Part shown: positions 11,801 through 35,034 of the stretch, in pieces
Numbering within the stretch: position 1 is the stretch's first letter
How the letters are laid out: each line of letters opens with the position of its first letter
DNA from: Schizochytrium sp. TIO01
Taxonomy: Eukaryota; Sar; Bigyra; Thraustochytrida; Thraustochytriidae
Reading direction: 5' to 3'
DNA length: 64,000 nucleotides
Assembly (NCBI GenBank): GCA_004764695.1
Contig: SMSO01000006.1
Span: 1,344,859 to 1,408,858, forward strand
Notes under the pieces: generated by a model
Databases searched by the model: none
Seen by the model: only the letters and a program-made list of their open reading frames with translations
What the model was told of the DNA's origin: nothing
Made by a program: the position numbers and the translations under genes

Positions 11801-14800
11801 CAATGCATTGATTGACTTCGATGGTATCTGGGGCAAGAAAAATTTGCAACTCCTGAGAAGTAAGATCAAGCCTGAGCAGTAAGGCATCGCCCACACCAAA
11901 ACCATTCTTGCTGATTCGCGCAAAACGATTCATACTGCGCACACGCGATGCGGAATACCCACGACAAATCAGCTCCCCACGACTATTTACGCCAACAAAT
12001 TGATCTCGCCCGGAACGATCCACTGACGCGATACCCACGACGACATCATGGGACATGTGTTTAACAAAAACACGCCATACGTGGATTCCACCATCGAAGC
12101 TCGAGTCGCAACGAGCCAATTGAAAATTTGTCGGTATCTTAGTATCAGAAAACTTCGTAACAGACCCCGAAACACCTTTTGGGGTAGTACGACCCCTTTC
12201 ACTGCTTTCATTTTGTATTGGAACTTCCTCAATCCAATCAAGCGGAATAGATCTGATCTCGCCAGTGTTTTCGAAACGAACGTCATATGAACCATCTTTA
12301 TGATCGCATAATATCGACGCCTCATAAAGTGTCGCTCCTCCTCCATAGCGAACAAGGACATTGCTGTGCACACCTAGTTCGCGAGGTCCTGGCAAAGAGG
12401 GGATATTCTCAGATAAATCTGTTGTTTGTCCTTGCAAATTGACAAGTAAACTGGCCATGAAACCGTTGGCCGTGAAAGCCATATGAGTTGAGCTTAGAGC
12501 CTTAGAAAATACTGGATGATGAAACTCTGCGCGATTCATGCATTCGATGTAGAATCGTTTATAGTTGACACTCGACTTTCGACGGCTGTCTTTGATTCTT
12601 GATTGTAAAGTAAGGCGTAAAAGTCCTACATCAGCACTATCATACCCAAGAGCGAATAAAGATTCCTCGAATTCAAACAGAGTAAGTGTATCATCGTTTG
12701 TCTCGTCGCGAGACCGAAAGGTCTCTAAAACTGGCAACCCACTTCGAGCTGCCTGGCGAAGGAAGTCCATGACCCGCGCAAGCTCAGCTTCTATGGCCCC
12801 AGCAGATACTTTTGTACGCCCCGACGGCGATAAAGCCTGGAAATCCTCCGGTTTGTCAGTTATAAATCCTCCACTCGCCTTCGCCGGCAATTTTTCAGCG
12901 TTCTCATCTAGGTTCAGTCCACGAAGTACAACTTGAAATGCATCCGAAAGGGCCGGGCCCACATGAAGCCAGATGTCATGTTGGCGTGCAGCTTTTAGGT
13001 ACGTGCATGAGAGCTCGTTACTTTGCATCACAGCAGGGTCTGGATCTCCTGTTGTTGGCGCAGCAAGCCTTGCCTCGAAATAAGGGCCTGTACCCAGTGC
13101 CAACCAAGGTGGTTGTCTGACAGCCTCGATAGCAGCACGAAACTTTGTCAAGAGAGGGCCTCTGATGCGTAATTCCTGCTCAATCTCCTCATCACTTAAT
13201 TCTAAAAGTGTCTCGCCGTCAAGCGCGAGCGCCATAGCTTCTTCAATAGGTAATTCAAGACTAGACATTAACTGAACCACATCGGATGTTCCCCACTGGT
13301 TAATGGGCGCCTCGTTTGGACGAGGAAGCATTGTGTCATTCACTACAAGCCGCCGGTAGACACGATGATTGTGCGTTGCAGATGTGATATGAGTGTTGGC
13401 ATTGCCATGACGCGAGCGAGCTGAATAATGCAAGTACGCTGTACGAAAGAGCAGTGCCTGAAGAGCGATTTCGTTCTCCAGTCGGAGCTCTTCAAGAGCT
13501 TCCATAAGGTCAAGCTCAAGTAAAGCCTCTCCGTCAATACCTTGATGTTCGAAAGGTAAAGAGGGAAGGCCACATGCTGATGCAAACTTACTTACTTGCT
13601 TGACTGTCCATTCTTCTGGATCTCCATCACCTGCAACAAGACCAGGATCTAAGGCATCAACGCTAAGTAAACGAAGCAGTTCTCGTTTTACCTTGCGTGC
13701 GACGATGGTGCTACCCGTGCCAAGTACGGTAAGCATATCATGATCATTTCCAAGAGGGAAAACATAACATTCGGTCATACCCAAATGTGTTCCATGGCTA
13801 ATTCGACTTTGAAACCTAGTTAACCCGATGCTTTCGAGAAAATCCAAAACCCTAGACTGTGTCGAAAAAAACATAACGTTATTCAAACGTCCAAGAGCGT
13901 GCCGCGTGGCATTTTCTTCAACATTGCGTAGACGCTGAGCTTCTGCAGCCTCTTCTGCCCGTAGTGCTGCTTCCTCTGCCATGCGAGCGGCCGCCATTTC
14001 TGCTGCATGGATTCTCTTTGCTATCCGGAGTCTTTTTTCCATTGACTTTGCGGAGGTTGATGTAGATATATTTTGACGAGAATTCGAAGAGCTTCCTCGA
14101 AATTCTTCTATACTCGAGTTAGATGGTGAAACAGCAGTACCAACGGCTTGGTTAGAAGTTTCTTGTACAAATTTGGGAATAATGACGCGAGCTTTTCGAG
14201 CACAATAAACTTTTTCTTTGACTGCCGTGGCATTTCGTTGAATGAAACTCGCGTTATTCACACGAGCAGCATGTGCTCGCCGCTGGGCTTGCCATAAAGG
14301 TCCATGTGTCTCGATTTCTGACTCCACCTTGCATAGAATTGCTTCAACAGCATATCGTGCCACACTCTTTGCAGCACGACGAGTTTTTTCGGATTGTCGA
14401 GATCCAAATACTGCCTGCCAAGTCTGACGCTTTGCTTCAGCATTTTTATTTAAAGTGAGACCGGGTATTGCAGACCTTTTGATACCCAGGAATTCAAAAT
14501 AGTCAACCTGGCCATCTTTAGATTCGTCTAGAGTTTCTGTGAATTGACGAATCACCCTCGCGTCGAATTCCTCATGGTGCGCAAAGATATCAGAAATAGC
14601 AAGCTCAAACTCTTCAAGGCTGATGGTTCCGTTGTTGTCCATGTCAAAATGGCTGAAGACATCAGATGCTTTCACTCCACGTTTACCAGATTCCAGTAGA
14701 AAGCTTTTCAGTTCTCGGCGTAACTTTCGAACTTGCTGAACAATCTCCTCATCGCTTCGTGCATCTTTGGATACTGGAACTTCTGGGTTTTTTGCTGCAG

Positions 14801-17800
14801 ACCAATATCGAAGAAATGCGTTATAGTCTATGTGCTGATTACGATTCGATGATGTACTGCGAGCTGTGTCTCCCCCGTGCCATGGTATACCACCATTCAC
14901 GCGAGACATTAATTGGCGTAGTTGCATTTCGCTGCACTCAAACCCAAGCTCCATTAGAGCTCGGTGAAATTCCTCCCATGTCACTGAGCCATCTCCATTC
15001 GTGTCAAAGTATCGGAATGTTTCTTTCAATGGAATGTTCATACTCTCCGCGCTCGCGATAAACTCTTGTAAGTCAGCCTCGAGGGTTGCAATTGGATCAT
15101 CAATTACAGTATCACGAAGTTCCATTGAAGGACTTCCTGGTGACATTGGTGACATGGGACCTTGCCCTCCCGGACCATTACCCCCGTGTCTCTGGCTTTG
15201 ATGAGATTTACGAACAATAGCAGCTTGAATGAATTCAAGGTAGTGAATTTTACCATCATTTTGTAGATTTAAGACATCCAAGAGTTGCTTCATTTCTGAA
15301 GGATCGAGGCGAATGCCAAGTGCTGTCATTGCACACCGAAAGTCGCGTTGGGTAATGGTGTTACTTTGATCAAGGTCAAAGTGCTGGAACGGGTTCATTA
15401 CAGCGTGCCGATCAAGGCGACGGCGTGCAACTTGGAGTTGCGCCTTCTGCACGGCAGACCTTAATGCCGTGGCTACTTCAGCAGGCTCAACTTGTTTCAC
15501 AAACTCTTCATAGTCAACGAGCCCATCATTGTTTGCATCTAAATATCGCACAAGTTTCTCGAAATCTTGCTCTTGTAATTTTAAATCAAGTTTTCGCAGA
15601 ACTTGCAAAAATTCTACACGATCAATAACCCCATCTTGCCTATAATCAGCTTTCATAAACAGAGACTTTATTGAGAAAGCAGATGAAACTTTACCATCTA
15701 CTTTAGCTTCTATATGAGCTGTCTTGGGGCTCATTACATCCGAGCGATATTCATGACTCCTAGCTAACCCAAGTCGAATTCGCTTAATTATACGCAAAAG
15801 AGCTGCTTGCTCCTCTTCAACGCCAATCATTCTCAAGAAACTAGTGTAATCGATATTTCCATCAAGATGCGCAACACCGTACTCTCGCATGATGCTCTTT
15901 AGTTGCTGTTGAGAAAAGTGCATATTGAGCCGCAAAAGACCGGCTTCAAGTTTTGCCATACCTATTGAGCCTGTATTGTCATTATCAAAGAGACGGAAGC
16001 AGGATCTATCGTTCGAGCCACGGGCCTGAGCATCACGCAGCACTGTTCTAAGATTTGCTAAGAAATCTTTAATTTGAACTTTACCCAAATCATCGAACGA
16101 AGATGGAGAGGTTCCCATGACCTTTTGAAATTGTCCTATATCAATAAAGTTCCTTCCTGGAACTTGAAAGTACTTCATGAGGAGGTTGTTCTGTTGATCA
16201 GAGAGTTTAGTATTAATAAGTCTTTCAAGCCCATACTTAAATTCATCTGGTTTGATTAGCCCATCGCCGTCAAGATCAAAGTGAGCGAACGAATCTATGA
16301 CACTAACTGGATGTTTGGGATGATTTGCAGCAGCTTGGACGAGTTCTCGAAGGTGGTCGAGTATTTTTTCTGTGGAGTCAACAAGTTTCTCTTCACGTGA
16401 TGTACCTGGAATTACCGAGCGTGATGACGTCGGAGACATTAATTTAGATTCTTGCATAAGCACGCGGGAACTCCCTGGCACCATTGGGCTGGGCGGGCCA
16501 AAAGTCTTTACATGTTGCAGCATGTCAATTGGTAGATTGCCATTGCCCTGTGAAATCTCATGAAAAAGGAAGTGATACTTTACAAAAGTCTCCTTTTTTA
16601 CTTTATGCAGAAGGCGATACCCAATGGCTTTTTTCAGATCTTCTACAGAATAAACAAGATCCAATGATGCCAGAGCCTTGAGAGCATCGGAAAGGCTAAT
16701 GAGGCCCTTTTTGCTTGCATCATACTTTTCAAAAGCCTCACGAACATGTTTGAGACGACCCTGAGCGTACGCAAGAGAACCCCTAAACTTGGCGCGAAGC
16801 TCTAGGCGGTCTTCAATCGCCTTTTGAAATGCATTCTTCTCTATGAGCCCCACCTGAGGCCCTTGGAACTTTTTCATAATCATTTGGGTTGTGCGAAAGC
16901 TGATAGTGATAGGAAACCCGAGCTTAATGAGGGCATTTCGAAGCTCGATGGTACTCATCAAATTATCATTTGTCTCATCAAACACTTTAAAGCACGTTTC
17001 TGCTGGAACGTTCTCTGCAAGTGCGTTTGCTATGATATCAACGAGATGATCAAAGGTGCTCTCAGCAACTTCATTTTCCTCACTTGGCTCCAGGGAATCA
17101 AGCCAAACATCCGGACAAAGGAGCGCAAGCAATAAAGAGTATTTTACTGTATGCTGCATGATTATATCTTTGTGCAGCGTACCATATGCCTGCTCAATAA
17201 CTTTAATCGCCTGAACTTCATCGCGATCGACTCGGGAAAGATCAAATCCTAACTCTAAAAGAAGCTCTACATAATGCTCGATAGGAAGTCGGCACTGATC
17301 AGATGAGTCTATGACCTCGAGCAAGGCCCGCACATTCAAACCGTCACGCCGTGCGTTAGCGAAAACTTCGCTTGTTTCTCGAAGAATCTGCTCAAATTTG
17401 GGATAAGGAGGGTTTCGGGATGGGAAGAATGCAGCATTTTGAACTTGAAGCAAAACAGCTGGCCTCTGTATAACAGCATTATAGAAGGATTGAAAGTTGA
17501 TTTTTTGCTGTTGTAAATGTTCTGTAGATTCAAACATGTCCATCAACATATGTACTTGCCGCGTATTAAGGACAGTTCCCAATTTGGCAATGCCAGCAGC
17601 AAATTCTTTCCGGTCAATTAAGCCGTCGCCATCTTTGTCAAAGTGCCCGAAGGCATTTTCAGGCTGAACTTTACCTTTCTCAATTCCACTTTGAATTGTA
17701 TAACGAAGCCTTTCGAGAGCAGCTAGAGACATACAATTGTCTCTATCTTGCTCTTTATCATCCCGAGACCCGTCTTTCCACACATCTGGAGCTAAAGAGA

Positions 17801-18947
17801 TTAGAAATTTGCGATACATGATTTTCCCATCCACAAGAGATTGCGGTGATCTTTTATTGATAATGTATGATAATGTTGCAGGAGTCAGATTTCGAACGCC
17901 AAGGCTTGCCATAACTTGAGCAAAATTATCCACAGGAATAAAATCGTCAAATTTGAGATCAAAGGATTCAAAAAGGATTCGGAAATCAATTTGATGCTCA
18001 AGCGCGAGCCTTACAGCCGTGAGCATATCCTTAACAAGACGGTCAACCAGATCATCTGAGATGTCTTGCATTTCATTAGTCGGTAGCATGGGCTGTTTTA
18101 GTTTCTTCTTTTGCTGCTTTGTAATAGTTTGAGCGTTCTTCTTAGGTGCTTTTCTTTGCGTCTGAAGTTTCGAAAGCTGCTCATTGGAAACATTTGCCAG
18201 ACGTAATAGTTCCTCGAAAAGATCAAAAGAGCATATTTGACGTGGAGAAAGTGATGATGTTGATTCAGTAACGGCTGAATACTCTGAAGTCGTCATGGTG
18301 TTATTCTTGAGTTTTTGCAAAAGCTTGGGCACGTCGGAAACTACAAGGGGAGACACACTTTCAAAGACATTGTGAACTAATTTGTGTCGAGCTTCCATAA
18401 AGGTATGGCTTTCATCACTGTGCAAATTCGTTTCATCGCCTAAAAGTTGGAAATACGCCGCTAGTGATGGGTTCGATATCAGCTTCTCCCAACTGATGAA
18501 CTCATTGGTAGAGTTCAATAAATCCTGTTGCCAAAATATTTGAAGCATATCTTCTTTGGGAGGAATAGGCCACTGAGGCTGCATCTCCTTCAAGGCCTTG
18601 ATAAACTGATCAATGAAACAATGCTGATCACCAATATATCCTCGTAAAGTCTTGTCTACAGCGTGTCCTGAATTTGCGTGTCCCTTCAAAATGGCTAAGA
18701 TGTCATCCCAAATCCGTTTGCTTTCTCCTAAGGGTAATATGTCGCTACCGAGAACTTCAAACTTCTCCTCGGCTGGGCTAAAACTATCAGCGAAAGTAGT
18801 TTCAACAAGAAAAGAGGCTTTGCTGCCTTCTTTGTCTTTTATCTCAGCGATTCTCACTTTCACATATTCACGGGATCGGGCTGCGATAGCAGACTTGCGA
18901 GCGTCCCTACACTCTACAACATCACCCCGGGTAAATCGAGTGTTCAT
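8883..18947 (-). CDS. giant multi-EF-hand protein with SAM-like and Tudor-like segments
   Basis: A single uninterrupted frame of 3,354 residues. I count at least fourteen EF-hand-like loops at about residues 300-1480. Canonical ones include FDKDGDGLIDRKEF (about 432), FDLDGDGLIKPDEF (about 887), FDTNGDGSVTWEEF (about 1312), FDMDNNGTISLEEF (about 1432) and LDESKDGQVDYFEF (about 1472); several others are degenerate. Two SAM-like regions follow (about 1776-1836 and 1883-1943), then two Tudor/agenet-like segments built on VRYGGG (about 2196 and 2549) around a SPRY-like stretch. The C-terminal 150 residues are a charged Gln/Ala-rich coiled coil. This suggests a large calcium-responsive scaffold; the function is unknown and I do not recognise an orthologue. 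The frame continues upstream to a GTG at 18998, but the first ATG (18947) is the safer start. No intron is evident over 10 kb. Confidence 0.88.
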   Translation of the reverse strand: MNTRFTRGDVVECRDARKSAIAARSREYVKVRIAEIKDKEGSKASFLVETTFADSFSPAEEKFEVLGSDILPLGESKRIWDDILAILKGHANSGHAVDKTLRGYIGDQHCFIDQFIKALKEMQPQWPIPPKEDMLQIFWQQDLLNSTNEFISWEKLISNPSLAAYFQLLGDETNLHSDESHTFMEARHKLVHNVFESVSPLVVSDVPKLLQKLKNNTMTTSEYSAVTESTSSLSPRQICSFDLFEELLRLANVSNEQLSKLQTQRKAPKKNAQTITKQQKKKLKQPMLPTNEMQDISDDLVDRLVKDMLTAVRLALEHQIDFRILFESFDLKFDDFIPVDNFAQVMASLGVRNLTPATLSYIINKRSPQSLVDGKIMYRKFLISLAPDVWKDGSRDDKEQDRDNCMSLAALERLRYTIQSGIEKGKVQPENAFGHFDKDGDGLIDRKEFAAGIAKLGTVLNTRQVHMLMDMFESTEHLQQQKINFQSFYNAVIQRPAVLLQVQNAAFFPSRNPPYPKFEQILRETSEVFANARRDGLNVRALLEVIDSSDQCRLPIEHYVELLLELGFDLSRVDRDEVQAIKVIEQAYGTLHKDIIMQHTVKYSLLLALLCPDVWLDSLEPSEENEVAESTFDHLVDIIANALAENVPAETCFKVFDETNDNLMSTIELRNALIKLGFPITISFRTTQMIMKKFQGPQVGLIEKNAFQKAIEDRLELRAKFRGSLAYAQGRLKHVREAFEKYDASKKGLISLSDALKALASLDLVYSVEDLKKAIGYRLLHKVKKETFVKYHFLFHEISQGNGNLPIDMLQHVKTFGPPSPMVPGSSRVLMQESKLMSPTSSRSVIPGTSREEKLVDSTEKILDHLRELVQAAANHPKHPVSVIDSFAHFDLDGDGLIKPDEFKYGLERLINTKLSDQQNNLLMKYFQVPGRNFIDIGQFQKVMGTSPSSFDDLGKVQIKDFLANLRTVLRDAQARGSNDRSCFRLFDNDNTGSIGMAKLEAGLLRLNMHFSQQQLKSIMREYGVAHLDGNIDYTSFLRMIGVEEEQAALLRIIKRIRLGLARSHEYRSDVMSPKTAHIEAKVDGKVSSAFSIKSLFMKADYRQDGVIDRVEFLQVLRKLDLKLQEQDFEKLVRYLDANNDGLVDYEEFVKQVEPAEVATALRSAVQKAQLQVARRRLDRHAVMNPFQHFDLDQSNTITQRDFRCAMTALGIRLDPSEMKQLLDVLNLQNDGKIHYLEFIQAAIVRKSHQSQRHGGNGPGGQGPMSPMSPGSPSMELRDTVIDDPIATLEADLQEFIASAESMNIPLKETFRYFDTNGDGSVTWEEFHRALMELGFECSEMQLRQLMSRVNGGIPWHGGDTARSTSSNRNQHIDYNAFLRYWSAAKNPEVPVSKDARSDEEIVQQVRKLRRELKSFLLESGKRGVKASDVFSHFDMDNNGTISLEEFELAISDIFAHHEEFDARVIRQFTETLDESKDGQVDYFEFLGIKRSAIPGLTLNKNAEAKRQTWQAVFGSRQSEKTRRAAKSVARYAVEAILCKVESEIETHGPLWQAQRRAHAARVNNASFIQRNATAVKEKVYCARKARVIIPKFVQETSNQAVGTAVSPSNSSIEEFRGSSSNSRQNISTSTSAKSMEKRLRIAKRIHAAEMAAARMAEEAALRAEEAAEAQRLRNVEENATRHALGRLNNVMFFSTQSRVLDFLESIGLTRFQSRISHGTHLGMTECYVFPLGNDHDMLTVLGTGSTIVARKVKRELLRLLSVDALDPGLVAGDGDPEEWTVKQVSKFASACGLPSLPFEHQGIDGEALLELDLMEALEELRLENEIALQALLFRTAYLHYSARSRHGNANTHITSATHNHRVYRRLVVNDTMLPRPNEAPINQWGTSDVVQLMSSLELPIEEAMALALDGETLLELSDEEIEQELRIRGPLLTKFRAAIEAVRQPPWLALGTGPYFEARLAAPTTGDPDPAVMQSNELSCTYLKAARQHDIWLHVGPALSDAFQVVLRGLNLDENAEKLPAKASGGFITDKPEDFQALSPSGRTKVSAGAIEAELARVMDFLRQAARSGLPVLETFRSRDETNDDTLTLFEFEESLFALGYDSADVGLLRLTLQSRIKDSRRKSSVNYKRFYIECMNRAEFHHPVFSKALSSTHMAFTANGFMASLLVNLQGQTTDLSENIPSLPGPRELGVHSNVLVRYGGGATLYEASILCDHKDGSYDVRFENTGEIRSIPLDWIEEVPIQNESSERGRTTPKGVSGSVTKFSDTKIPTNFQLARCDSSFDGGIHVWRVFVKHMSHDVVVGIASVDRSGRDQFVGVNSRGELICRGYSASRVRSMNRFARISKNGFGVGDALLLRLDLTSQELQIFLAPDTIEVNQCIDDLTEVARIRLNEVYRAQGKEQQDPNRRIKMFLKKKRGQLEKLLLQKIDERQRSVPVSVISYELYELGLEARESDLFNFLQPFLHRRRHGVDPLAMLEGLGLASEQHWESDSGSDSDYDEKNLSGPNKSITACSGYAPGMLLQGAGDAVQFTEACRAAPAMAEAKVGALVEVRYGGGSLWYPGEIMKIEENRGDHAQTSYTIRYDDGEVESGVRMGNIRILRQEKPPVATPKSRLVLQLYCRLLAYVAPISNNQREERLAQRRAQLLNGAAYKSAAKGRVWQHGRHHEFEIEKGSQEGEKRAAERISGSEPTLLATDVEIRGSTFSDVGGLRLQELLRKRLNTPHQVNWSLTTSTCHQFYAPLAVEQQSNETDASTKGTSAETVSSFPGAVVSDQSWTHIGSIDVESMQKVSEGEVGIPVSLRLDAPSNQCYYRLCFMGVLGTVLPSGEFVKVQAPVEPVRAVMNKTRVRIGGGWEMDVFDSLAMNDSADFKAGRFFLLSGAIAVHEPTKSEQDASKARTTNQKRTPKGLPKRVSRKPFREEFHPERRRGNGTKLEKEIPTVEIPGMGDARLSNVDTVEDSTATKPNGVAYLNQGYSRSNRESSMDDSPKRASPAPRSPSRRRFGNWPKSPTKMWMSQDEQIVIDRWLKDIGLNEYGLPPDLDEVNFGYENSGRFSNRFEQIFDIHPERPWMQMARERRWLPTRDEQRKIRRWARRSGSQRPNRRLPDQTLYEALLLAEPSQPWLDRVPRRDPLKPRATAAGLRASTNVDIGKEKRDAEGVFKGNEGKQFAKGGVNKPHQPAPPATPRQKGGKQNKEWQQDVRIVQDNIKRRLEEVDQDVEHMTSQYASLVADHDRTDSQRRIHRDEVKEMARAMAQEAMARKNEEAHLAWERKQQLLQAQSLAAQQASVDRREANLRTMEDQFRAAAQAQEWAQQIDKKYVRKVAKDKNRKQGEDGPLERAVHLSGKNIPL

Positions 18948-19819
18948 AGTGATACAGCAGCTGAAAGTACTAGGGTTTGAGGCCAGCTTGGTCCTCACCT
19001 TCGCGCTTGCCAGAAGCCGCCTCTTTCAGTCTCTCTGTTCAGTCTGTAAGTTAAGCTTGCTAAACCAGGCTCTCCTCTCGACACAATAGACGACGTAGCC
19101 TTGGTTGCTGCTGCTACAGCCTTGCGCGGCTTTGGCGACGTCAGGCACCAGCAGACCACTATTGCACGAGAGCAAGACAAGCTCCCGTGACCTCTTTTGC
19201 AAATGTAGCGGCCTTTAGACAACAAAACACAATAATATTCACTAGTTCACAGTATTAGCACCGGGAGTCTTTTAATAGCAGGTTCTTTTTCACGTTAAAG
19301 GCCCATTTGCAATCGATTCTGCGGATCGCCTCTCACGGCTGTCTTTTGCCCGAAAACTCGGGCTCGAGCCCAGGAAGGTCCCATGACCAGCCTGAGAGCA
19401 AAGAGGTGTTACAGTGTAGTGCTCAACGGTAACATTTATATAGAAGGGAAGATAGAAGGAATTTAAAAGAAAAAAGAAAAAAGAAAAAAGGCTTAAAATA
19501 CACAGCAAGTAAAGGAGAAATTCTAGTCATTGAAGAACCAAAGAAACCAAAAGGCGCCAATCGGGCTCTAAGTACTGTCGAAGAGGAACCTAGTTTAAGC
19601 ACCGATTTATTTACGCTAAACAAAAACTTGATGCTTGCGATTAGCTTTAGGGTATAGCTCGATAAGTGCAGTGACTCGTTCGCAAAGGACCGCAAAAGCG
19701 ATTGGAACTTGGCAGCACAGCAAGTCGACCAGTCTTGGCGGGTTGCAAGACTTGAAGAAGCAAAAGAAAATCCAAAAGGCGAAAGAAGTTGACAGCGACA
19801 GGCGAGTGGTGCTGTAAAT
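18948..19819. other. spacer between the divergent EF-hand and acidic-protein genes
   Basis: The first 250 bases are relatively GC-rich and probably carry the EF-hand gene promoter and 5' UTR. From about 19433 the plus strand is open in the same frame as the next gene but is broken by a TAG (before CTCGATAAG, near 19658) and a TGA (19790-19792). The translated segments look protein-like, including the 18-residue stretch WNLAAQQVDQSWRVARLE. They may be extra 5' exons of the gene at 19820 whose splice sites I cannot place, or decayed sequence. Confidence 0.35.
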
Positions 19820-26800: not shown

Positions 26801-27950
26801 GGCCTCCTATGCTTAACAGTAGCAATGTGATGGATGGGGAACAGAACGACTGGCGATTGGAACAGGGAAAGGTTGTGAATGTGGGTGGCAAAGGATCGAA
26901 AAGCAACAATGAAGATTGATTGCTCTGGGGTTCTCAGAAGCCTGTCGGTATGCACTCACGAAATGCACGCCGCTTGAAAGACGTTGGCATGATCGATCTA
27001 ATGAAAAACCAAGTAACTTTGATCGAGACATGAAAAGAAGCTTAGCTGTTGCAGCATGTAGCTAGTTCATTATTGTATTATTTGTTTACCTCAAACTGTC
27101 ATCAATTATTATTGCTCTGTTGAATGGGTCAGTGAGGTCGCTTCTGCTGTAGTAAAAGACGAAAGTGAAATAAAGGATACGAAGAGAAACGATCAGAAAC
27201 CCAAACAATGCCATCCTGAGAGATCTCAAAGTTGCGGACGGCAATTGTAAAAGGCTTTGCCAAACCCTTTCAGAAGTAATGATGCAGGCAGGAATAGACA
27301 ATACATACTGACGGTGCCTCAATACATCTATTTATATTGTAGGCCTAGTACTATGTCATTGTTTATTAATTTTAAAATTAACTACTTTTAGAATTGATAA
27401 TTTCTCAAAATATAGAAAACAAAATTAGAAAAATTGATGAACTTGGACGATAAGAAACAGAAATAAAAACTTGTTTTCCCTCCATCATAGGCATAGGGGT
27501 TCCTATTGGTTGGCTAGGTACCCTCGCTGCCCTCTCAAAAGGAAAAGAACTTGAAAGAACTTTTCACAGTTCCTAGCAATTGCGGACTTCGGGCCAAAGA
27601 GATGACCCAACTCGAAGGTCTTTCTTTGCTGTTGTTGTCTCCAGACGGTTTGCTTTTGGAGAAGAGGAGACGATATTGCGTTGCTCTATCTTAGTGCTGA
27701 TATCCCAGTCGTGACCTCTCTCATTTCCTGCTTCCTTCCTTTTTTCAAGCTAGTGTTTATTGAGTAAGTCAGTTCCCTTGATTGATTGCTTGATTGATTG
27801 CTTACTTGCTTTAAGCTTCTGCTATCGCATGTACCATAGGTAGTTGTTATTTGTCAAACGTTTTTATTTCTATTTTCATTTAAAAAGCACATAGGTACAG
27901 GTACTCTTAGATTTTAAACTACAAAATTTGCAAAACTTGCATTTCATAGC
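23850..27950. other. 4.1-kb gene-poor stretch
   Basis: No frame here exceeds 100 codons, and none has recognisable motifs. AT-rich patches occur at 24930-24990 and 27350-27470. A degenerate repeat lies near 26250-26385 (separate entry). I see no tRNA, rRNA or transposon terminal structure. Confidence 0.5.
26241..26385. repeat. degenerate short tandem repeat
   Basis: A run of imperfect units of about 9-14 bases related to CATGATTCGCAATTCGT, together with a local triplication of TAAGTCA/TCATGA. It is too diverged to define a period confidently. Confidence 0.4.
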
Positions 27951-27951
27951 A

Positions 27952-28020
27952 GGTCTAAGACCCGATCGCGGATTAGTTAGACTAACCCGCGACTCAATGA
28001 AATGATTTTTTTTAAATCAT
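27952..28020 (-). ncRNA. candidate Fanzor guide-RNA scaffold: three hairpins at the nuclease 3' end
   Basis: Reading the minus strand from the end of the Fanzor frame, three inverted repeats follow one another. (1) 28020-28002: 7-bp arms ATGATTT/AAATCAT spanning the stop codon. (2) 27992-27966: 12-bp arms TCGCGGGTTAGT and ACTAATCCGCGA with a 3-base loop CTA, fully paired if one G-U is allowed. (3) 27962-27952: GGTCT-T-AGACC. TnpB and Fanzor systems are known to use a non-coding RNA (omega RNA or fRNA) from the transposon end just 3' of, or overlapping, the nuclease gene, with the guide lying beyond the element boundary. Position and structure fit; expression and the exact boundary are unknown. 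A transcription-terminating or purely DNA-level transposon-end structure is the alternative. Confidence 0.45.
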
Positions 28021-29487
28021 GTCCTTGGATAGGTAGCGTAAAAGGATGCCTCTTGCGGCATGGACATCACGGTCTGCTACATGGTTGCACTTGGGATTAG
28101 GGCATTGGAAAATCTTGGATGCCCCGAGGTTATGGTGGAGGGTACCACACTCATTGCATGTTTTGGAAGTGTAACTTTCTTGGCAAAGAACAAGCTTGCA
28201 CCACGGGAACATCTCAGCCTTATGAATGAGAGCCTGGCGGAACCCAAAATGGGACCAACGACACATCATTCGAATAGACTTCTTGGAGATCCGTCGCTCC
28301 ATCCTCCTGCTCATCTTAGAGGTTTCGAATTTGGGCAGGAGAATAACACGATAGTTTTCACAAAGCCAAAGCGCGAGCTTGCGGTGAATCTCAGTGATCT
28401 TGTTCTTGATCTTGAGTTGGGCGCGATAGAAGGCGCGCTTCAAGGGGGTGTTGAAATTGTCTTTATCACTGGATGCAGTTTTCTTTTTATCAATGCTGCT
28501 TTGGATCTTATCAACGCGGCGACAGAGATAGAATATGGTTCTAAAATCTTTCCCTGTGCCCCATTCAATGGCGCGGCCATCGGCGTCATACATCGTCTGA
28601 AACGAGCGAACACCCGGGTCTAGAGCAATGACACCATGGTGCGCCTTGGGTGCCTGGTCCATTGGACGCTTTTTTTCTTCTCGTAAGAAGCAGAAGTAGA
28701 CATGCCCAAGGCGATTCATTTGCACACGCATGGCGTTCGAAATCTGGTCGGGGAACTCTTCTTTACGTGTTCGGAATTCTTTTAGAAAGTTGGAGGTCTT
28801 TGATTTCTTCGCATTCCAGGTACGTGCATTCACTTCGAAAATCTGTGATTCATCACGCTTGGTCCGAAACTTATAAAAAGATTGCTCATGGACTTTCTTT
28901 TGTACAGCGAGCTCTTCGTTTTTGGCTCGTCCCGAGTTAATAGCCTTGAAGAAATCCAGAATCCCGGAATCACGGATAGCCTGTGGGACCTCGCGAACCC
29001 ATTTAGGAGCACCATTACTTTCTTTAGATCGAACGACTTTCTTTTCTCCATAGAGGGCACTATGCGTTTGGGGATTCCCATCTTCATCTACTAAATCCTG
29101 CTTCGTCTTACGATCCTTTTTGATGCACGCTTCTTGATGCAATTTGATGGCTTCTTTCTCGCCCTTCGCCATGTCTCGGTGAAACGCAACGCCAATATTG
29201 TAGGCTCTTCTAGTGACACCAAACCATTTAAGCAACTGTGTACGTTGATCTTTATTAGGATATACCCTAACCTTTCTGGCACGGACAAGGTTATATTCTT
29301 TCTTGATGGTCTTGCGCGCCTTCGTGCGAGCTCGCTTCTTCCTCGCTGCGTCGTCGCCGTCTATTTTGCGCTGCTCGTTTTCCGTGATGCGATGCCACAA
29401 AGACGGTGATGATTCCGAGGAGGTCTTTGGTGAAGGTGTCTGAGTCTCCGGCATGTGCATCTTGGCCGTGTACCACGAGTTTGACAT
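28012..29487 (-). CDS. Fanzor/TnpB-type RNA-guided nuclease of an IS607-like element
   Basis: A 491-residue protein with the TnpB plan: basic N-terminal part (VRVYPNKDQRTQLLKWFGVT, the usual helix-turn-helix entry), then a split RuvC nuclease. Catalytic residues look intact: Asp290 in IALDPGVRSF, Glu388 in LLPKFETSKM, Asp474 in ADRDVHAARG. The zinc-ribbon between the last two is complete (CNECG and CPNPKC). The usual Asn two residues after the last catalytic Asp is His here. The frame is open far upstream, but that part is only a shadow of the recombinase; ATG 29487 is the first credible start, and 29460 and 29454 are alternatives. The start lies one base after the premature TAA of the recombinase and overlaps its C-terminal codons. 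IS607 association points to the Fanzor2 type. Fanzors cut DNA using a transposon-encoded guide RNA. Confidence 0.85.
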   Translation of the reverse strand: MSNSWYTAKMHMPETQTPSPKTSSESSPSLWHRITENEQRKIDGDDAARKKRARTKARKTIKKEYNLVRARKVRVYPNKDQRTQLLKWFGVTRRAYNIGVAFHRDMAKGEKEAIKLHQEACIKKDRKTKQDLVDEDGNPQTHSALYGEKKVVRSKESNGAPKWVREVPQAIRDSGILDFFKAINSGRAKNEELAVQKKVHEQSFYKFRTKRDESQIFEVNARTWNAKKSKTSNFLKEFRTRKEEFPDQISNAMRVQMNRLGHVYFCFLREEKKRPMDQAPKAHHGVIALDPGVRSFQTMYDADGRAIEWGTGKDFRTIFYLCRRVDKIQSSIDKKKTASSDKDNFNTPLKRAFYRAQLKIKNKITEIHRKLALWLCENYRVILLPKFETSKMSRRMERRISKKSIRMMCRWSHFGFRQALIHKAEMFPWCKLVLCQESYTSKTCNECGTLHHNLGASKIFQCPNPKCNHVADRDVHAARGILLRYLSKDMI

Positions 29488-29998
29488 TTTATCTTTCGAA
29501 AAGGTGTTCCAAGAGGTCGACTGCGATTCGCGCAAGTCGGTCGCGGTGCATGACCACAACTTGGCCGATTCCGCCGCGGTCACAGGCGTCCAGTAGGGAG
29601 CACAGACCTTGGCGTTTGAAATTGACCCCGCTACCGATGTCTTTGTAGACGGCGGAAGCATCTGGGTAGGCGCGCTGGAGATCGCCAACCTGGCGTTCGA
29701 GGTCCTCCTTTTGCTTGACCGAGGACACTCTGGCGTAGATAACGGTACATCCAGAGCTGCGTTGCTCGCGGCCGGTGGAACCGCAATCAAAGATGCGCTC
29801 AACATCGTCGCTGGCATAGATGCGCTTGCCTCCGGGGAAGCGCGCGAAGCGCACGCGTCCGCCGTCGGCCCAGCCCCGAAGGGCGCTTGCTGAGACCCCA
29901 AACTTCCTATTGCAGAGTAGCCTGAGCTGTGAAGCGTGGAGAGGTAGTCTGACAAGGATGACGAACTCAGGAGAAAGAGAAAGAGGATGATATATGAG
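29291..29998 (-). pseudogene. IS607-type serine recombinase (TnpA), broken
   Basis: The frame encodes a MerR-like helix-turn-helix (FGVSASALRGWADGG, then PGGKRIY), a linker, and the resolvase domain beginning VIYARVSS, where the Ser of YARVS is the expected nucleophile, followed by HRDRLAR. It then stops at a TAA (29491-29489) after HLFER. Family-typical sequence resumes in the same frame (NVKLVVHGQ, then DLLGIITVFVA and a basic tail) down to a stop near 29291. About 65 C-terminal residues, including the helix needed for synapsis and DNA contact, are lost. No ATG exists in frame between an upstream TAA (30001-29999) and the helix-turn-helix; the only alternative start, GTG at 29854, is inside that domain. 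The gene is therefore probably inactive, unless an upstream exon and stop readthrough exist. It overlaps the nuclease gene. Confidence 0.8.
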
Positions 29999-30019
29999 TT
30001 ATTGGGGTTTCAGGTCTGG

Positions 30020-30330
30020 ATACAGGCAGGAATGAATGTATGATGTCAGTCCGATACACAGGATGTGTCGGACATGAGGGCTTGGTTAGGTTAGGTTAGG
30101 TTAGGTTAGACAGTAGCTGTATATTACTTCAATACTCCCCCCGCAAATCACGCGTCAGCACCTGAAGCATCAAGTAAGCGACTAGCGTGTTTCCAATGAG
30201 ATGGTGAAAGAACTTTGCTGGTTTGTATTCGAGGTTTGCTCCACTTGCAGTGTTTGGAGCTTGTCGGTTCCTCGGCCTCCCCATTTTCTTATCTAACCTC
30301 TACTTCTTATTAATAATCTAACTAAACATA
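30020..30330 (-). mobile_element. possible copia-type LTR retrotransposon 3' remnant
   Basis: On the minus strand, GCGGGGGGAGTATTGAAG (30144-30127) resembles the polypurine tract and LTR start that close many Ty1/copia elements (G-rich tract, AG, then T-x-TTGAA). Before it lie two short open frames ending at TGA, as expected at the end of pol, but neither shows recognisable RNase H motifs. After it lies AT-rich sequence with a 5-unit GGTTA repeat, then a CT-rich run leading into the IS607-like element. No second LTR copy or primer-binding site was found, so this is only a hint. Confidence 0.25.
30084..30109. repeat. (GGTTA)5 telomere-like repeat
   Basis: Five perfect GGTTA units, equal to the TTAGG telomere repeat known from arthropods and differing by one G from TTAGGG. 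It is interstitial and very short, so it is more likely a chance or LTR-internal repeat than a telomere scar. Confidence 0.9.
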
Positions 30331-30476
30331 ATATATGGTTAATATGAAACAATCACATCGAAATATAAGTTATCGAACTTTTAACGTTTTTTGTTGTACT
30401 GCATTAGGATATATACCATACACAAAATTATGCATAACAAAAACGTTTTTCTATAATCTATAACTATATCATGTTT

Positions 30477-30541
30477 GTATGTATGTATGTATGTATGTAT
30501 GTATGTATGTATGTATGTATGTATGTATGTATGTATGTATG

Positions 30542-30571
<30 letters not shown>
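30477..30571. repeat. (GTAT)n microsatellite, about 23 units
   Basis: A perfect tetranucleotide tract of 95 bases. Its reverse complement (ATAC) gives a spurious Thr-Tyr-Ile-His repeat frame. Confidence 0.97.
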
Positions 30572-30839: not shown

Positions 30840-32148
30840 TAGGTACCTACTATCTCTCTCCAAGCCAAGTAAGGAAACAAAGTTCCAACTTCTTTCTTCT
30901 TGAAAACCAAAACAACAACTTGAACAGGTTTTCTTTCTTTTTGTTGCTATGTCTCTCAATAAATACGCACTACCCACTCGCTAGCCACTTGTATTGGTGG
31001 GTAGGTAGGTACTAGTTTTTCAACAATGAGTGATTTCTTTCTTTTTCAATTTTTTCAATTTTTCGAGTGAATTAAAACGTTTTTAAAAAGATTAGACTTT
31101 TAAAATAGTGAGAAAGAATTAATTCCTACTTTTAAGATAGTTTGGGGTAGCGGGCTTAGTGGGACTGGTATCGGTGTCCTTTTACAGCGAAGACACAGAT
31201 AATCCAAAAATAGTTTTTTATAGTTTAGTGGGTAGAGTATGTATGTTACTTGGTAATGAATGATCTGTGCGAAGCTTTTGCTTGCGAAGACAAACTTCGA
31301 TCGCCGACGATCGCTCGGTCGCGACTCGCTCGGCGCCGTCCGAGGTATAAAGAGAAGGAGGGCCAGTTGCGGGGAACCTGGATCCTCCCCAGGAACACCT
31401 CGCTCGCGCCGCCCAGGCCGCCGGCGGAGGTAGACGCTGCGCAGGACAGGGCAGGACATTCAATTGTCAAGCTCTCTTTCTTTGCTTAATTTCCCTCTCT
31501 TTCTGTCTCTCTGCTTCTCCTTGAGTGGGCCAACAAACGAAGAAGCGCCGTGCTTTTTGGACTCATACCCAAATACATTTGGAGAAGTTAGAGGTTGAAA
31601 CCGAGCAGCAATTCGCCAAGGCAGCCGGGTCTTTGATCAAAAGAAAGCTTCTGGACCTTCGCTCAGGAGGCTCTTGACTTGACTTTGGTCATTGTAGCAG
31701 GTTGGATTAAAATATATCAATCCACTTGAGAATTCGTCTGTGAATCGCCCCTTGCAGGTATTGGCTGCTGGGACTAGTGCACATCTCTCTGTTTAGACAC
31801 AGAAACGTCAAACGCGAGTGGAAGACCGGGAATTTACTGGTGTTTCGAACCGGTTTATTCTGTATCTGTATCTAAATTTAATCCGCCGGACTCGCGTACA
31901 TCTGGAAAAAAAAAAAAATTGCTCAAATTTCCACGTGCGAATCTCGCAGCCGTGTACTTAGAGCTAGGCAGAAATAACAAGTGAGTTAGAAGAACAAGCA
32001 TTGTCCTATAGGATCCTGATCATTTGCTTCGACAGGACTCTCGGTGTCAAGAACGCAGGAAGACGCCACCGCGGGTCTTCCTGCCCAGGAAGGGGGCACA
32101 ATCGAACCCCTTCCTCTAACGCGTGACAGCCGGGGCTCGAAGCGAAGG
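30840..32148. promoter_or_regulatory. upstream region of the PKG-like kinase gene
   Basis: About 1.3 kb without a credible gene. A GC-rich patch at 31270-31450 contains CGATCG-rich palindromes (CGATCGCCGACGATCG). CT-rich sequence at 31480-31520 and a poly-A run at 31904-31918 precede the coding start. The last 105 bases are open in frame with the kinase but start only with GTG. This probably includes promoter and 5' UTR. Confidence 0.4.
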
Positions 32149-35034
32149 ATGGGCTGTGCCTCCTCATCTGTGAACGAAAATCAAACTCCGACTTCTTTCG
32201 AAAAGCCCTCGCAGCGTTCGAGGATCTCTGAAGAACCAACTCGTACCACAGACGCTCCTAGCCCAGCCACAACCAGCCCCACGACAGCAATTGAAAAAAT
32301 CGATTTCACGAACTCGGCATCAGAAGAAATGGCGCACATCGACGACCAGCAAGTCGACCTGGACAGTGAGATGTTGCAGACACGCACGCCCGCCCTCTCG
32401 GACGCCATGGACGTCGATCCGAATGGACCCATGACCGAGACGCTTCTACAGCAGGCCGGGCTTGACCCGGTCCTCGCAAGTATCGCCCGTGAGCTTCGTG
32501 AAGCACCTTTCTTCAAGCCTCACTCCTGGCGCCAGATCCTCGGTATTGTCAGCAATATGGAAGAAGTCCCTTATACAAGCGGCACTGTTATTTGCCAACA
32601 AAATGCCGAGCAGGATGCATTTTACGTGCTCCGTTCTATGCATGACGCCGATGCGTTTTCTATTGACTCAGATCAAGCACAACACATTCCACGCATGTTT
32701 GGAGAGACATGCTTGCGCTACAATGATGTGAAATGGGCCATGACACTCATCGCGCAACGTGACATTACTGTTTTCCGCATCACACCACAAGTCTATCGTC
32801 GTCTAATTGTGCGAGAAGCTAAGCAAGAAGAAAATCATCTGCTCGGATTTTTGCGCAAAGTCCCCCTTCTCAAGCATCTTACAGAGGAGCAACTGGTGGG
32901 CCTCAGCAAAGCTGTGCAGCATGCACACTATCCTGATGGTGATAAAATTATTGCTCAAGGAACAATGGGATCATCTTTCTATTTGATTGAGTCTGGCACG
33001 GTAAAGTGCCTTCAGCACACACGCAAGGGCCCGCGCGAGGTGACAACGGAAGTAAATCGCTATTCTGCAGGTGATTACTTTGGAGAAGGCGCTCTCCTTA
33101 AGGATGCGCCGCGTAACGCAGATGTTGTTGCTATTGGGGATGTTACCTGCCTCGTGCTCAAGCGCGAGGACTTTACTGATCTTCTAGGGTCCCTGCAACT
33201 TCTCATGGAACGTAACTTCCGTGCCCGAGTTCTCAAGGGTGTTGAAATCCTCTCCAAGCTCACTGATTCAGAACGCGCTGCATTGGCAGAACTGCTCGAT
33301 GAGGAGATTTTCGAACCTGGTCAGCGTATCATCCGCCAAGGAGATTTTGGAGATCGCTTTTACATTATCAAGGATGGTGAAGTCTGTTTTCGTCGCATCC
33401 CCGACGGGCGGAACTCCTCGGCTGCAAGCCCATCAGATGATAACCAAAATGCCGCCGCTGCAGCGGCGGCTGCTGCTGCAGCGGCAGCCATGGCAGCAGC
33501 CAATGCATCTTCAGGTTCCTCAAACTCCGGCATGTCAGTGATTCCACCTCCGCCGCCTCCACCTCCTGCTGTCCCTGCCTCGTTTCAAGATGGCCCCTTT
33601 CATGAGTCTACACCCGATCCAGCTGTTGCCGCAGCAGCCGCGGCTGCTGTTGCAGCAGCTGCAGCCATGTCTTCAGCTAGTGTTAACGGTTTTCCACCCC
33701 AAGCTTCTGTACCCCCGCCACCTCCACATATCCCTGGTGGCTCCACCCCACCGATGCCGCTGTCGCTGCCAGTTTCGGGATCCCCATCACCGTCGCCCGT
33801 GCCCTCTCCTGGTCAGCAGCAATTCGCAATTGCCGAACCCAAAGAGGAAGAAATTGGTCGACTTTTCTCAGGTGCGTACTTTGGTGAAGGTGCTCTCCTC
33901 ACAGCTGCGCCACGTAGAGCCAGTGCCTATGCGGTGGGTCACGTAACCTTGCTGAGTTTGGAACGCTCGCAATTTGATGAAATCTTTGATGAATCACTAC
34001 AAGATCTTCTTAATCGAGATTTCGAAAAACGAAAGACCGAAGATACTGATACTAATGTGGAATTTTCTGATCTCGAGCAGCTATCAGTTCTTGGAGCTGG
34101 TAGTTATGGTCAGGTTCTCCTTGTTAACAACAAAGTTACTGGCCGTACCTATGCTCTCAAGACTATGGCAAAAGCTCGCATTGTTCAAATGGGTCAGCAG
34201 AGTCATGTGCTTAACGAAAAGCACATTCTTGAATCTACAAATCATCCGTTCATTGTTAGTTTGAAGCAGTCCTATGTCAGTCCGGACCATGTCTTTGTTC
34301 TTTTAGAAGCGGTTCTCGGTGGCGAGCTCTTTGCTTACATGCGCTGTGCTGGTCGCCTTCGTCTCAAGGATGCAACATTTTACATTGCTCAAGTCATTCT
34401 AGTCTTTGAATATCTTCATTCAAAGAATATCATCTATCGCGATCTTAAACCAGAGAATTTGTTGGTGGCAGCAAATGGTTATCTTAAATTCACAGACTTT
34501 GGTCTCGCCAAGGTTCTTATCAACGATCGTAAGACTTACACTCTTTGTGGAACCCCAGCCTATGCTTCACCTGAAGTTTACTCCTTGGCGGGGCATGGCA
34601 AACCCGCGGATTGGTGGACACTTGGCGTGCTTACCCACGAAATGCTTTCGGCAACCACTCCTTTTGATGGAAATGCTGAGCAAATTTTTGCCAGTCTTGA
34701 GGAATACTCCAGGGCTTATCCGAATATTCGACTTCCCCGTGGTTTATCTGGCGATTCTGCGGATTTCACTTTGCGCCTTCTTAACCCAAATCCAACAAAG
34801 CGACTTGGTTGTTTGCCCAGGGGCAACGGTGCTCGCGATGTAAAGTTGCACCCTCTCTTTCGTAATTGCAATTTCTCCCGGCTCCTACGCTTGGAGACCA
34901 AACCACCTTTTGAACCGAAAATTGATTCTACCTTTGACACGAATAATTTCTACACACCCGCTCTCAAGGGTAAGCCTATCAAACTGGATAATGTAGATCC
35001 GAAATCTATTCGCATTGGTGAATGGGAGTTTTAA
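32149..35034 (+). CDS. PKG-like cyclic-nucleotide-regulated AGC protein kinase
   Basis: A 961-residue serine/threonine kinase. The ATG at 32149 gives MGCASSS, a classic myristoylation (Gly2) plus palmitoylation (Cys3) signal, which supports this start over the open GTG upstream and predicts membrane attachment. Three cyclic-nucleotide-binding folds follow: a degenerate one (about 121-221), one with FGEGALLKDAPRNADV (about 238-354), and a third (about 364-621) split by a roughly 150-residue insert of poly-Ala and poly-Pro before FGEGALLTAAPRRASA. The kinase domain (641-904) is complete: GAGSYG 649-654, Lys671, YRDLKPEN (Asp765), DFG (Asp783), Thr798 in TLCGTPAYASPE, and an AGC tail with FDTNNF. 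Regulatory and catalytic parts in one chain match cGMP-dependent kinases. The Thr/Ser that usually follows the phosphate-binding Arg in cGMP-selective sites is Asn in one site and Arg in the other, so the ligand is uncertain. Confidence 0.92.
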   Translation: MGCASSSVNENQTPTSFEKPSQRSRISEEPTRTTDAPSPATTSPTTAIEKIDFTNSASEEMAHIDDQQVDLDSEMLQTRTPALSDAMDVDPNGPMTETLLQQAGLDPVLASIARELREAPFFKPHSWRQILGIVSNMEEVPYTSGTVICQQNAEQDAFYVLRSMHDADAFSIDSDQAQHIPRMFGETCLRYNDVKWAMTLIAQRDITVFRITPQVYRRLIVREAKQEENHLLGFLRKVPLLKHLTEEQLVGLSKAVQHAHYPDGDKIIAQGTMGSSFYLIESGTVKCLQHTRKGPREVTTEVNRYSAGDYFGEGALLKDAPRNADVVAIGDVTCLVLKREDFTDLLGSLQLLMERNFRARVLKGVEILSKLTDSERAALAELLDEEIFEPGQRIIRQGDFGDRFYIIKDGEVCFRRIPDGRNSSAASPSDDNQNAAAAAAAAAAAAAMAAANASSGSSNSGMSVIPPPPPPPPAVPASFQDGPFHESTPDPAVAAAAAAAVAAAAAMSSASVNGFPPQASVPPPPPHIPGGSTPPMPLSLPVSGSPSPSPVPSPGQQQFAIAEPKEEEIGRLFSGAYFGEGALLTAAPRRASAYAVGHVTLLSLERSQFDEIFDESLQDLLNRDFEKRKTEDTDTNVEFSDLEQLSVLGAGSYGQVLLVNNKVTGRTYALKTMAKARIVQMGQQSHVLNEKHILESTNHPFIVSLKQSYVSPDHVFVLLEAVLGGELFAYMRCAGRLRLKDATFYIAQVILVFEYLHSKNIIYRDLKPENLLVAANGYLKFTDFGLAKVLINDRKTYTLCGTPAYASPEVYSLAGHGKPADWWTLGVLTHEMLSATTPFDGNAEQIFASLEEYSRAYPNIRLPRGLSGDSADFTLRLLNPNPTKRLGCLPRGNGARDVKLHPLFRNCNFSRLLRLETKPPFEPKIDSTFDTNNFYTPALKGKPIKLDNVDPKSIRIGEWEF

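Follow-up and report, generated by a model that had tools for sequence, protein, structure and literature searches.

Fanzor2/IS607-type elements have been described from eukaryotes and giant viruses (Bao and Jurka, 2013, PMC3627910; Yoon et al., 2023, PMC10711439). We analyzed an element of this type on the minus strand of a 64-kb stretch of the genome of Schizochytrium sp. TIO01, referred to here as the window (contig position 1344859-1408858; genome of 64.06 Mb in 37 contigs). With the described elements, as presented in the main texts of these papers, it shares the DPG and E-x6-C RuvC signature, a helix-turn-helix (HTH), a zinc ribbon, a serine recombinase as partner of the nuclease and ends at which no terminal inverted repeats were found. 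Unlike for the element here, no overlapping reading frame is described in these texts; Aurantiochytrium is absent from both, and thraustochytrids from that of PMC10711439. The nearest prokaryotic relatives of the window nuclease are the cyanobacterial 'pro-Fanzor' IS607 TnpBs of the latter paper, with about 30% identity, and 75 of the 80 loci kept here (of 189 found) are cyanobacterial by title. The nuclease frame that we find over TnpA in these relatives is unmentioned in its main text. Many bacterial DPG nucleases are without the zinc-ribbon cysteines (alignment A3 consensus TSKTVSWTGE) but have the Ealt glutamate.

In canonical IS607 elements (Hydrogenophilus, Thiodictyon, Thermus, Campylobacter ISChh1, H. 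pylori, lactobacilli, Streptomyces) TnpA is likewise followed by TnpB on the same strand in partial overlap, which however measures 4-29 nt (10 pairs). The open reading frames (ORFs) of IS607 are called 'overlapping or separating' in a passage of PMC9956272. A dead TnpA beside TnpB is common in bacteria, as 30% of the TnpAs in two-ORF, RAGATH-18-associated IS607 loci are pseudo according to the relevant sections of PMC11061315. There, too, the nuclease is kept beside a broken transposase, whereas in the element studied here both frames share DNA over most of TnpA. A published account of a nuclease-recombinase overlap was not found in a search that included parts of PMC10711439, PMC9956272, PMC10432273 and PMC11061315 and had most subscription journals, supplements and ISfinder outside its scope.

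The window locus is probably one copy, itself non-autonomous, of an IS607-type Fanzor2 transposon that was active recently and the broken form of which has spread in trans, and in the Fanzor lineage the nuclease overprints the recombinase. In bacterial (mostly cyanobacterial) and viral-contig relatives, comparison of the frames shows that the nuclease frame runs at +1 across the catalytic domain of the recombinase, and both depletion of stops and amino-acid selection in this second frame mark it as protein-coding and selected. One stretch of DNA would therefore encode two proteins in these relatives.

For a first stop count, loci alike by 6-mers were collapsed to one, which reduced 68 bacterial loci to 43 (45 in the start analyses); L110, L115 and L133, having other offsets, were excluded from the first frame and start-position counts. 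All 30 stops of the +1 frame in TnpA lay at or before residue 59, while about 120 were expected past residue 60 from synonymous shuffles (expectation from 35 of the 43 loci, the remaining 8 having stops in the recombinase match; observed stops from all 43). Over TnpA the ratio of observed to expected stops was 0.19 for the +1 frame and 0.89 for the +2 frame; control ratios were 1.08 (nuclease genes) and 1.01 (75 further ORFs from these loci). In a larger count past the HTH, 51 bacterial loci left after de-duplication (all with DPG, and 46 from cyanobacteria by title) contained 5 +1-frame stops where 189.0 were expected, and 34 viral-contig loci contained 57 where 182.9 were expected. Forty of these viral stops (43.5 expected) sit in L237 and L243, which carry a DLG motif and are therefore taken as ordinary TnpBs. 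In all 51 bacterial and all 34 viral loci of this larger set the nuclease is at +1 relative to the recombinase. This count excludes L086, L107 and L134 (bacterial) and L180, L195-L199 and L238 (viral), which had no recombinase match, as well as L092 (too far) and one bacterial locus with offset 0; 7 of 44 additional viral loci were added, being on contigs new to the set. Searches of viral contigs with the window protein or alignment A1, and of genome contigs with the window protein, were unproductive. Ordinary IS607 elements served as control, for which 14 regions were fetched and L138, L141, L142 and L148, being without an annotated TnpA-TnpB pair, were not used. The ten annotated pairs showed no depletion (150 stops versus 145.6 expected); followed upstream from the TnpB start, their TnpB frame meets a stop after 0-117 nt. 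In L150, a non-DPG element of Calothrix, the nuclease frame is open for merely 2 codons upstream.

Selection on the second frame was assessed by an overlap test on NN/NS site classes, the idea of which follows OLGenie. Over 23 disjoint pairs of relatives, the +1 frame of the TnpA core gave a dNN/dNS of 0.33 and a dSN/dSS of 0.33, and differences creating a +1-frame stop were absent. The corresponding control values were 1.12 and 2.86 for the nuclease +1 frame, 1.69 and 0.77 for the nuclease +2 frame, and 5.94 and 0.71 for the TnpA +2 frame. The proportion of synonymous differences (pS) in the TnpA core was half that of the nuclease (0.109 versus 0.215, 53 non-independent pairs). In relatives the +1 product retains P-Y-W and S-W-F-S motifs at the codon level: in bacterial loci tryptophan is found at L129-residue 107 in 98% (n=45) and at residue 146 in 98% (n=47), with 20% and 18% expected, and in viral loci in 97% (n=29) and 93% (n=30), with 24% and 23% expected. 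Stops within the TnpA core interrupt the recombinase frame in 11 of the 51 bacterial loci and the nuclease frame in 2, so that a dead recombinase with an open nuclease frame is an expected outcome.

The features of the window element are as follows.

~30400 (left end) to 27904 (right end), minus strand: whole IS607-type element; ends set by comparing 16 copies with differing flanks.
30399..30401, minus strand: CAG at the left flank, proposed target and target-adjacent motif (TAM) with AG crossover; CAG is enriched across copies.
30203..30284, minus strand: recombinase (TnpA) codons 1-27 with the ATG at 30284; start as in full-length siblings.
29908..30202, minus strand: 295-bp insert comprising the end of a copia polyprotein, a polypurine tract and a long terminal repeat (LTR) of ~227 bp; genomic matches to copia.
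29863..29865, minus strand: position of an upstream nuclease-frame ATG found in 8 siblings, ACG in the window copy; from copy comparison.
29492..29907, minus strand: recombinase body up to the stop, with the catalytic YARVSS; Pfam Resolvase 1.1e-15.
29488..29817, minus strand: candidate nuclease-frame extension overprinted on the recombinase; open frame here, stop depletion and selection in relatives.
29590..29598, minus strand: PYW motif of the overprinted frame; PYW in 16/16 own copies.
29489..29491, minus strand: in-frame TAA of the recombinase; shared by 6/16 copies and L051.
29291..29488, minus strand: recombinase remainder past the stop, overlapping nuclease codons 1-65; family-typical sequence.
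28012..29487, minus strand: nuclease, 491 aa from the ATG (MSNSWYT), Fanzor2 type (DPG, E-x6-C); Pfam and PDB matches, motif check.
27904..28011, minus strand: hairpin-bearing right end, presumed scaffold of the omega RNA; conserved in 14 copies.
27884..27903, minus strand: right flank, presumed natural guide; flanks differ among copies, guide role after the main text of PMC10711439.

The element thus reaches beyond 27952..29998, the span given in an earlier model-made annotation of this DNA (the original prediction). On the minus strand its order is left end, recombinase ATG, 82 bp of recombinase, 295-bp insert, remainder of the recombinase with the TAA, nuclease, and right end with hairpins.

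By its DPG and Ealt signature the nuclease is of Fanzor2 type, and RNA-guided cleavage is predicted for it. Its ORF matched Cas12f1-like_TNB (1.8e-13) and HTH_OrfB_IS605 (6.2e-9) in Pfam, and the top PDB match by sequence was 'TnpB-like protein L79' (9b0l, 1.5e-18), which we take to be a mimivirus protein. With the prokaryotic NCBIfam model guided_TnpB (NF040570) it scored 90.0 bits, under the curated cut-off of 100. The DPG motif of RuvC-I lies at residue 290 in all 14 full copies of the genome, and the catalytic signature is intact in each of them. As originally predicted, Asp290, Glu388 and Asp474 and the four cysteines of both zinc-ribbon halves are present in the 491-aa ORF (29487..28012). 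Glu388 occupies the canonical TnpB position of the catalytic glutamate and had been listed among the RuvC acidic residues; in the Fanzor fingerprint given in the main text of PMC10711439 the catalytic glutamate lies six residues ahead of the zinc finger, which points to Glu437 instead (E437 SYTSKT C444). Both glutamates are invariant in a four-sequence alignment. The zinc finger (C444, C447, C462, C467) is followed by R473 D474; its second half reads C-x4-C here and C-x2-C in the Fanzor2 pattern published there. The host is eukaryotic by its genome of 64 Mb in 37 contigs, its copia elements and a neighboring gene for a protein kinase that binds cyclic nucleotide monophosphates, and its large genes with few introns would suit a thraustochytrid-like protist.

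The recombinase of the window copy is broken twice. As the original prediction had it, the frame contains a TAA at 29491..29489 and continues with family-typical sequence after the stop. It had also been said to lack an ATG; this was mistaken, since the ATG is present at 30284, separated from the remainder by a 295-bp copia fragment that had been overlooked. The fragment (30202..29908), which cuts codons 1-27 off the rest, represents the 3'-terminal part of a Ty1/copia element. A query around it gave 41 genomic matches, 5 of which are copies of this Fanzor element, and a full copia with a 1636-aa open frame was found at locus L052. A spliceosomal intron was considered and rejected, as the insert has no GT-AG at its ends (by eye) and matches copia LTRs. 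The TAA is found in 6 of 16 aligned copies (the window copy included) and in L051; a one-off sequencing error, which the original prediction had named as one result that would overturn it, is therefore ruled out. In the nuclease frame the TAA at 29491 makes a single conservative Glu/Asp difference, and loss of the recombinase therefore costs the nuclease little. Unlike the broken window copy, the sibling L002 encodes a recombinase that scores 143 bits with the NCBIfam IS607 model NF033518 (cut-off 110) and matches Resolvase at 2e-19, with MerR_1 under its cut-off.

Copies in this genome were labeled L001-L016, L001 being that of the window; L051 and L017/L021 are further loci. A tblastn search with the nuclease gave 101 matches, 14 of which cover all 491 residues stop-free at 91-100% identity; L015 and L016 are damaged at the 3' end, and many further matches are decayed relics. 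Eight of the 14 full copies stand beside a full 232-aa recombinase starting from ATG (L002, L004, L005, L008, L011-L014), five carry the TAA (L001, L003, L006, L007, L009), and L010 is without the 5' part of the recombinase. The window nuclease is thus one of many recent copies. This counts in part against the original prediction, for which many identical, recently inserted copies would have been a refuting result; the other full copies are 91-97% like it and so fall short of identity. Next to two young copies, in the left flank of L002 (185-783) and the right flank of L016 (356-952), lie older short derivatives of ~0.6-0.7 kb, 77% alike, which consist of left- and right-end parts with most of the inside missing.

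The 295-bp insert occurs in five copies (L001, L003, L006, L015 and L051). When the flanks of 16 copies were compared with all collected loci (L051 as target only), no shared flanks were found between insert-bearing copies, and segmental duplication was rejected on this ground. Insert-bearing pairs differ at 0-3 positions in the recombinase body. L003 and L015 have 3 differences there and, over the nuclease's first 1300 nt, 6. They are alike throughout and have unrelated flanks; the simplest view is that both arose by transposition of an element whose recombinase was already broken. All other insert-bearing pairs show 28-50 differences in the first 1300 nt of the nuclease; L001 and L006, for instance, have 0 differences in 138 recombinase codons but 50 in the nuclease. 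Differences are linked in blocks that recur in varying combinations from copy to copy, and the copies are hence mosaics. Dense blocks of this kind lie at element positions 1029-1090 and 1599-1642 and look like patches taken from family members of greater divergence. Because of this mosaicism part of the spread may be due to gene conversion, and for the pairs other than L003/L015 conversion of the 5' module may account for the pattern. Most simply, the broken form reached five unrelated sites by movement in trans, to which gene conversion may have contributed. Of the three explanations offered in the original prediction (very recent inactivation, mobilization in trans, a host-adopted RNA-guided nuclease), mobilization in trans is thus best supported, by the five sites with unrelated flanks and the intact siblings, although some of the spread may be conversion.

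In the window copy the nuclease frame continues without a stop from its ATG upstream to 30009, at +1 over the recombinase gene, and comprises 665 aa in all. The PYW is kept in 16/16 own copies and in 7/8 damaged copies or relics (the seven where the stretch is readable), and the second motif takes the form SWY within MSNSWYT. Divergence at synonymous sites (dS) within the family is 0.038 in the recombinase versus 0.087 in the nuclease. From the clade-wide pattern, the kept PYW and the open frame we infer that the overprinted extension is translated in this host. Initiation would be at an ATG near the beginning of the recombinase gene or at one deeper inside it, and the nuclease would measure ~600 aa. 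In 10/10 insert-free copies with an in-frame recombinase ATG, the next ATG belongs to the nuclease frame and lies at +124 in eight copies and at +172 in L002 and L007; L016, which has a one-base shift, and L010, which has no recombinase ATG, are left out of this count. The window copy has its first nuclease-frame ATG past the insert at 29817, which would give 601 aa. Across 40 bacterial loci, TnpA residues 40-43 hold 24 nuclease-frame ATGs where 9.7 are expected, just past a stop-rich position 37; the first such ATG at or after residue 40 falls at 40-43 in 19/39 loci. A tnpA start, taken as the earliest start codon within its open frame, could be set for 37 of 45 loci; in 33 of these the distance from it to the first nuclease-frame ATG is 0-89 nt.

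Two other routes to the nuclease start were left as weak. Leaky scanning to a second AUG is disfavored because the recombinase AUG is in a strong context, by the rule for AUG start codons. Termination-reinitiation at the TAA beside the nuclease ATG cannot be general, since in the four aligned insert copies the recombinase frame ends earlier, after 51 or 60 codons.

Several observations weigh against this reading of the locus. Within the TnpA core of 30 viral DPG loci the nuclease frame has a stop in 7 (all at or before residue 98) and the recombinase frame in 5, and the asymmetry of stops is therefore not seen in viral contigs. Within the own family an open frame is by itself not a significant finding (11-15% of the shuffles of five copies are likewise stop-free), the overlap test over non-independent pairs is mixed (dNN/dNS 0.91, dSN/dSS 0.15), and the +2 and nuclease controls gave dNN/dNS values of 0.65 and 0.54. 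The window lineage is without the +124 ATG kept in 8 siblings, and Shine-Dalgarno sequences lend the bacterial starts little support (6/45 first ATGs versus 3/95 later ones, p 0.03). Losses of either gene occur in this genome, as L017/L021 (contig 33, 4614414-4615885) presents the opposite case of an open recombinase and a nuclease with two stops; examination of the relic recombinase frames in this genome was uninformative. Movement in trans has against it that most insert-bearing pairs show far fewer differences in the 5' module than in the nuclease, the pattern expected from gene conversion.

Some of these points are those on which ordinary decay would rest. A young copy would have had its recombinase broken recently, the nuclease would be intact for lack of time, and the open frame would be chance in GC-rich DNA. 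The likeness of the copies, the opposite case, the share of shuffles without a stop and the common occurrence of dead TnpAs in IS607 agree with this, as does the dN/dS (nonsynonymous to synonymous rates, pooled NG86), which is equal for both genes: 0.319 over 14 copies of the nuclease and 0.315 over 15 of the recombinase, dead ones among them. Because of the mosaicism, pairwise dN/dS is no measure of the time since inactivation. Decay leaves unexplained the stop depletion, the frame-specific selection and the conserved PYW/SWFS of the relatives, and also the PYW kept in own copies and relics; we regard it as possible, though clearly behind overprinting in a mobile element. That gene conversion rather than transposition put the broken 5' module onto elements already resident at those sites is unlikely: the mosaics and the near-identical recombinase bodies beside diverged nucleases speak for it, but L003 and L015 are alike along the element and yet have unrelated flanks. 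Somewhat less likely again is +1 frameshifting that joins the recombinase to the overlapping frame, giving an HTH-nuclease fusion with no internal start. The frame does open at or just past the HTH-coding part, the offset is +1 in the bacterial and viral loci counted (the one bacterial locus with offset 0 apart), and the first ATG at or after residue 40 lies outside 40-43 in 20/39 loci; against this stand the excess of nuclease-frame ATGs at residues 40-43, to which some loci contribute two, just past the stop-rich position, and the closeness of the first ATG to the recombinase start.

According to the original prediction, selection seemed to have kept the nuclease after, or independently of, loss of its transposase, possibly as a host-adopted enzyme. 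In recombinase-dead copies, private nuclease changes number 10 synonymous (S) and 17 nonsynonymous (N), a nominal p of 0.04 for fewer N than the neutral 79%. However, 14 of these 27 changes, mostly clustered, belong to the mosaic copy L006, without which 4 S and 9 N are left; recombinase-intact copies have 13 S and 16 N (p 0.003). Selection after the loss is hence not established, since the signal rests largely on L006, and dN/dS is equal for both genes. Besides the nominal p value, the catalytic signature intact in all 14 full copies would fit host adoption, but the nuclease belongs to a multicopy mobile family with complete transposon ends, unrelated flanks and full-length autonomous siblings and is not an immobile, fixed, selected single locus. 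Host adoption thus finds no support here and is very improbable.

Overprinting in a mobile element, the reading we prefer, would work as follows. The recombinase is broken by the stop and the copia fragment, full-length siblings exist elsewhere in the genome, and the broken form would have moved using recombinase made there, with some exchange of blocks between copies. The extended nuclease (~600 aa) would be translated from the +1 frame over the recombinase gene. As in related elements, nuclease and right-end RNA may cut the empty site next to CAG, and repair would restore the element.

For the lineage as a whole we put forward a tentative scenario, which we hold to be somewhat short of an even chance. 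The nuclease ancestral to Fanzor would have gained its long N-terminal part from overprinting of the DNA that encodes the catalytic half of its partner recombinase; double coding would lock the genes together and would have been carried into eukaryotes and viruses, where in the present host the region would still be translated and outlive the recombinase. Parts of modern Fanzor N-terminal extensions may descend from it, and overprinting would be a possible source for such extensions. If the frame is translated across the recombinase, pro-Fanzor and some Fanzor2 proteins may have been annotated with starts that are 100-190 residues off, and cloned proteins may miss a conserved part. The element would then hold a long same-strand overlapping gene pair that constrains the evolution of recombinase and nuclease, and overprinting offers a testable reason why this lineage has copies in which the recombinase is dead but the nuclease frame open.

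At the left end, a CAG is found at most 11 nt upstream in 12/15 copies (background 0.147, p 3e-8). The right end reads TA[AG]GAG in the 15 copies having that end, the right flanks differ in all 15 copies shown, and no terminal inverted repeats were found at the element ends. ISXfa1 has a GG crossover and a GGG TAM according to the main text of PMC10711439, and by analogy an AG crossover and a CAG TAM are proposed for this family. The right-end hairpins are conserved in 14 copies, with a consensus fold of -30.0 kcal/mol; double-sided covariation in these 14 copies and a match in Rfam were not found. By likeness to related elements, the right end (27904..28011) is presumed to be the scaffold of the omega RNA and the adjoining flank its guide.

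A long (TATG)n array occupies window positions 30470-30571, ~70 bp outside the left end of the element. Further out, at 32020-35034, lies an unbroken 1004-aa ORF with cyclic-nucleotide-binding and protein kinase domains, which is PKG-like. On the minus strand at 8883-19025 the window holds an intronless open frame of 3380 aa that is seemingly rich in EF-hand-like motifs (by eye).

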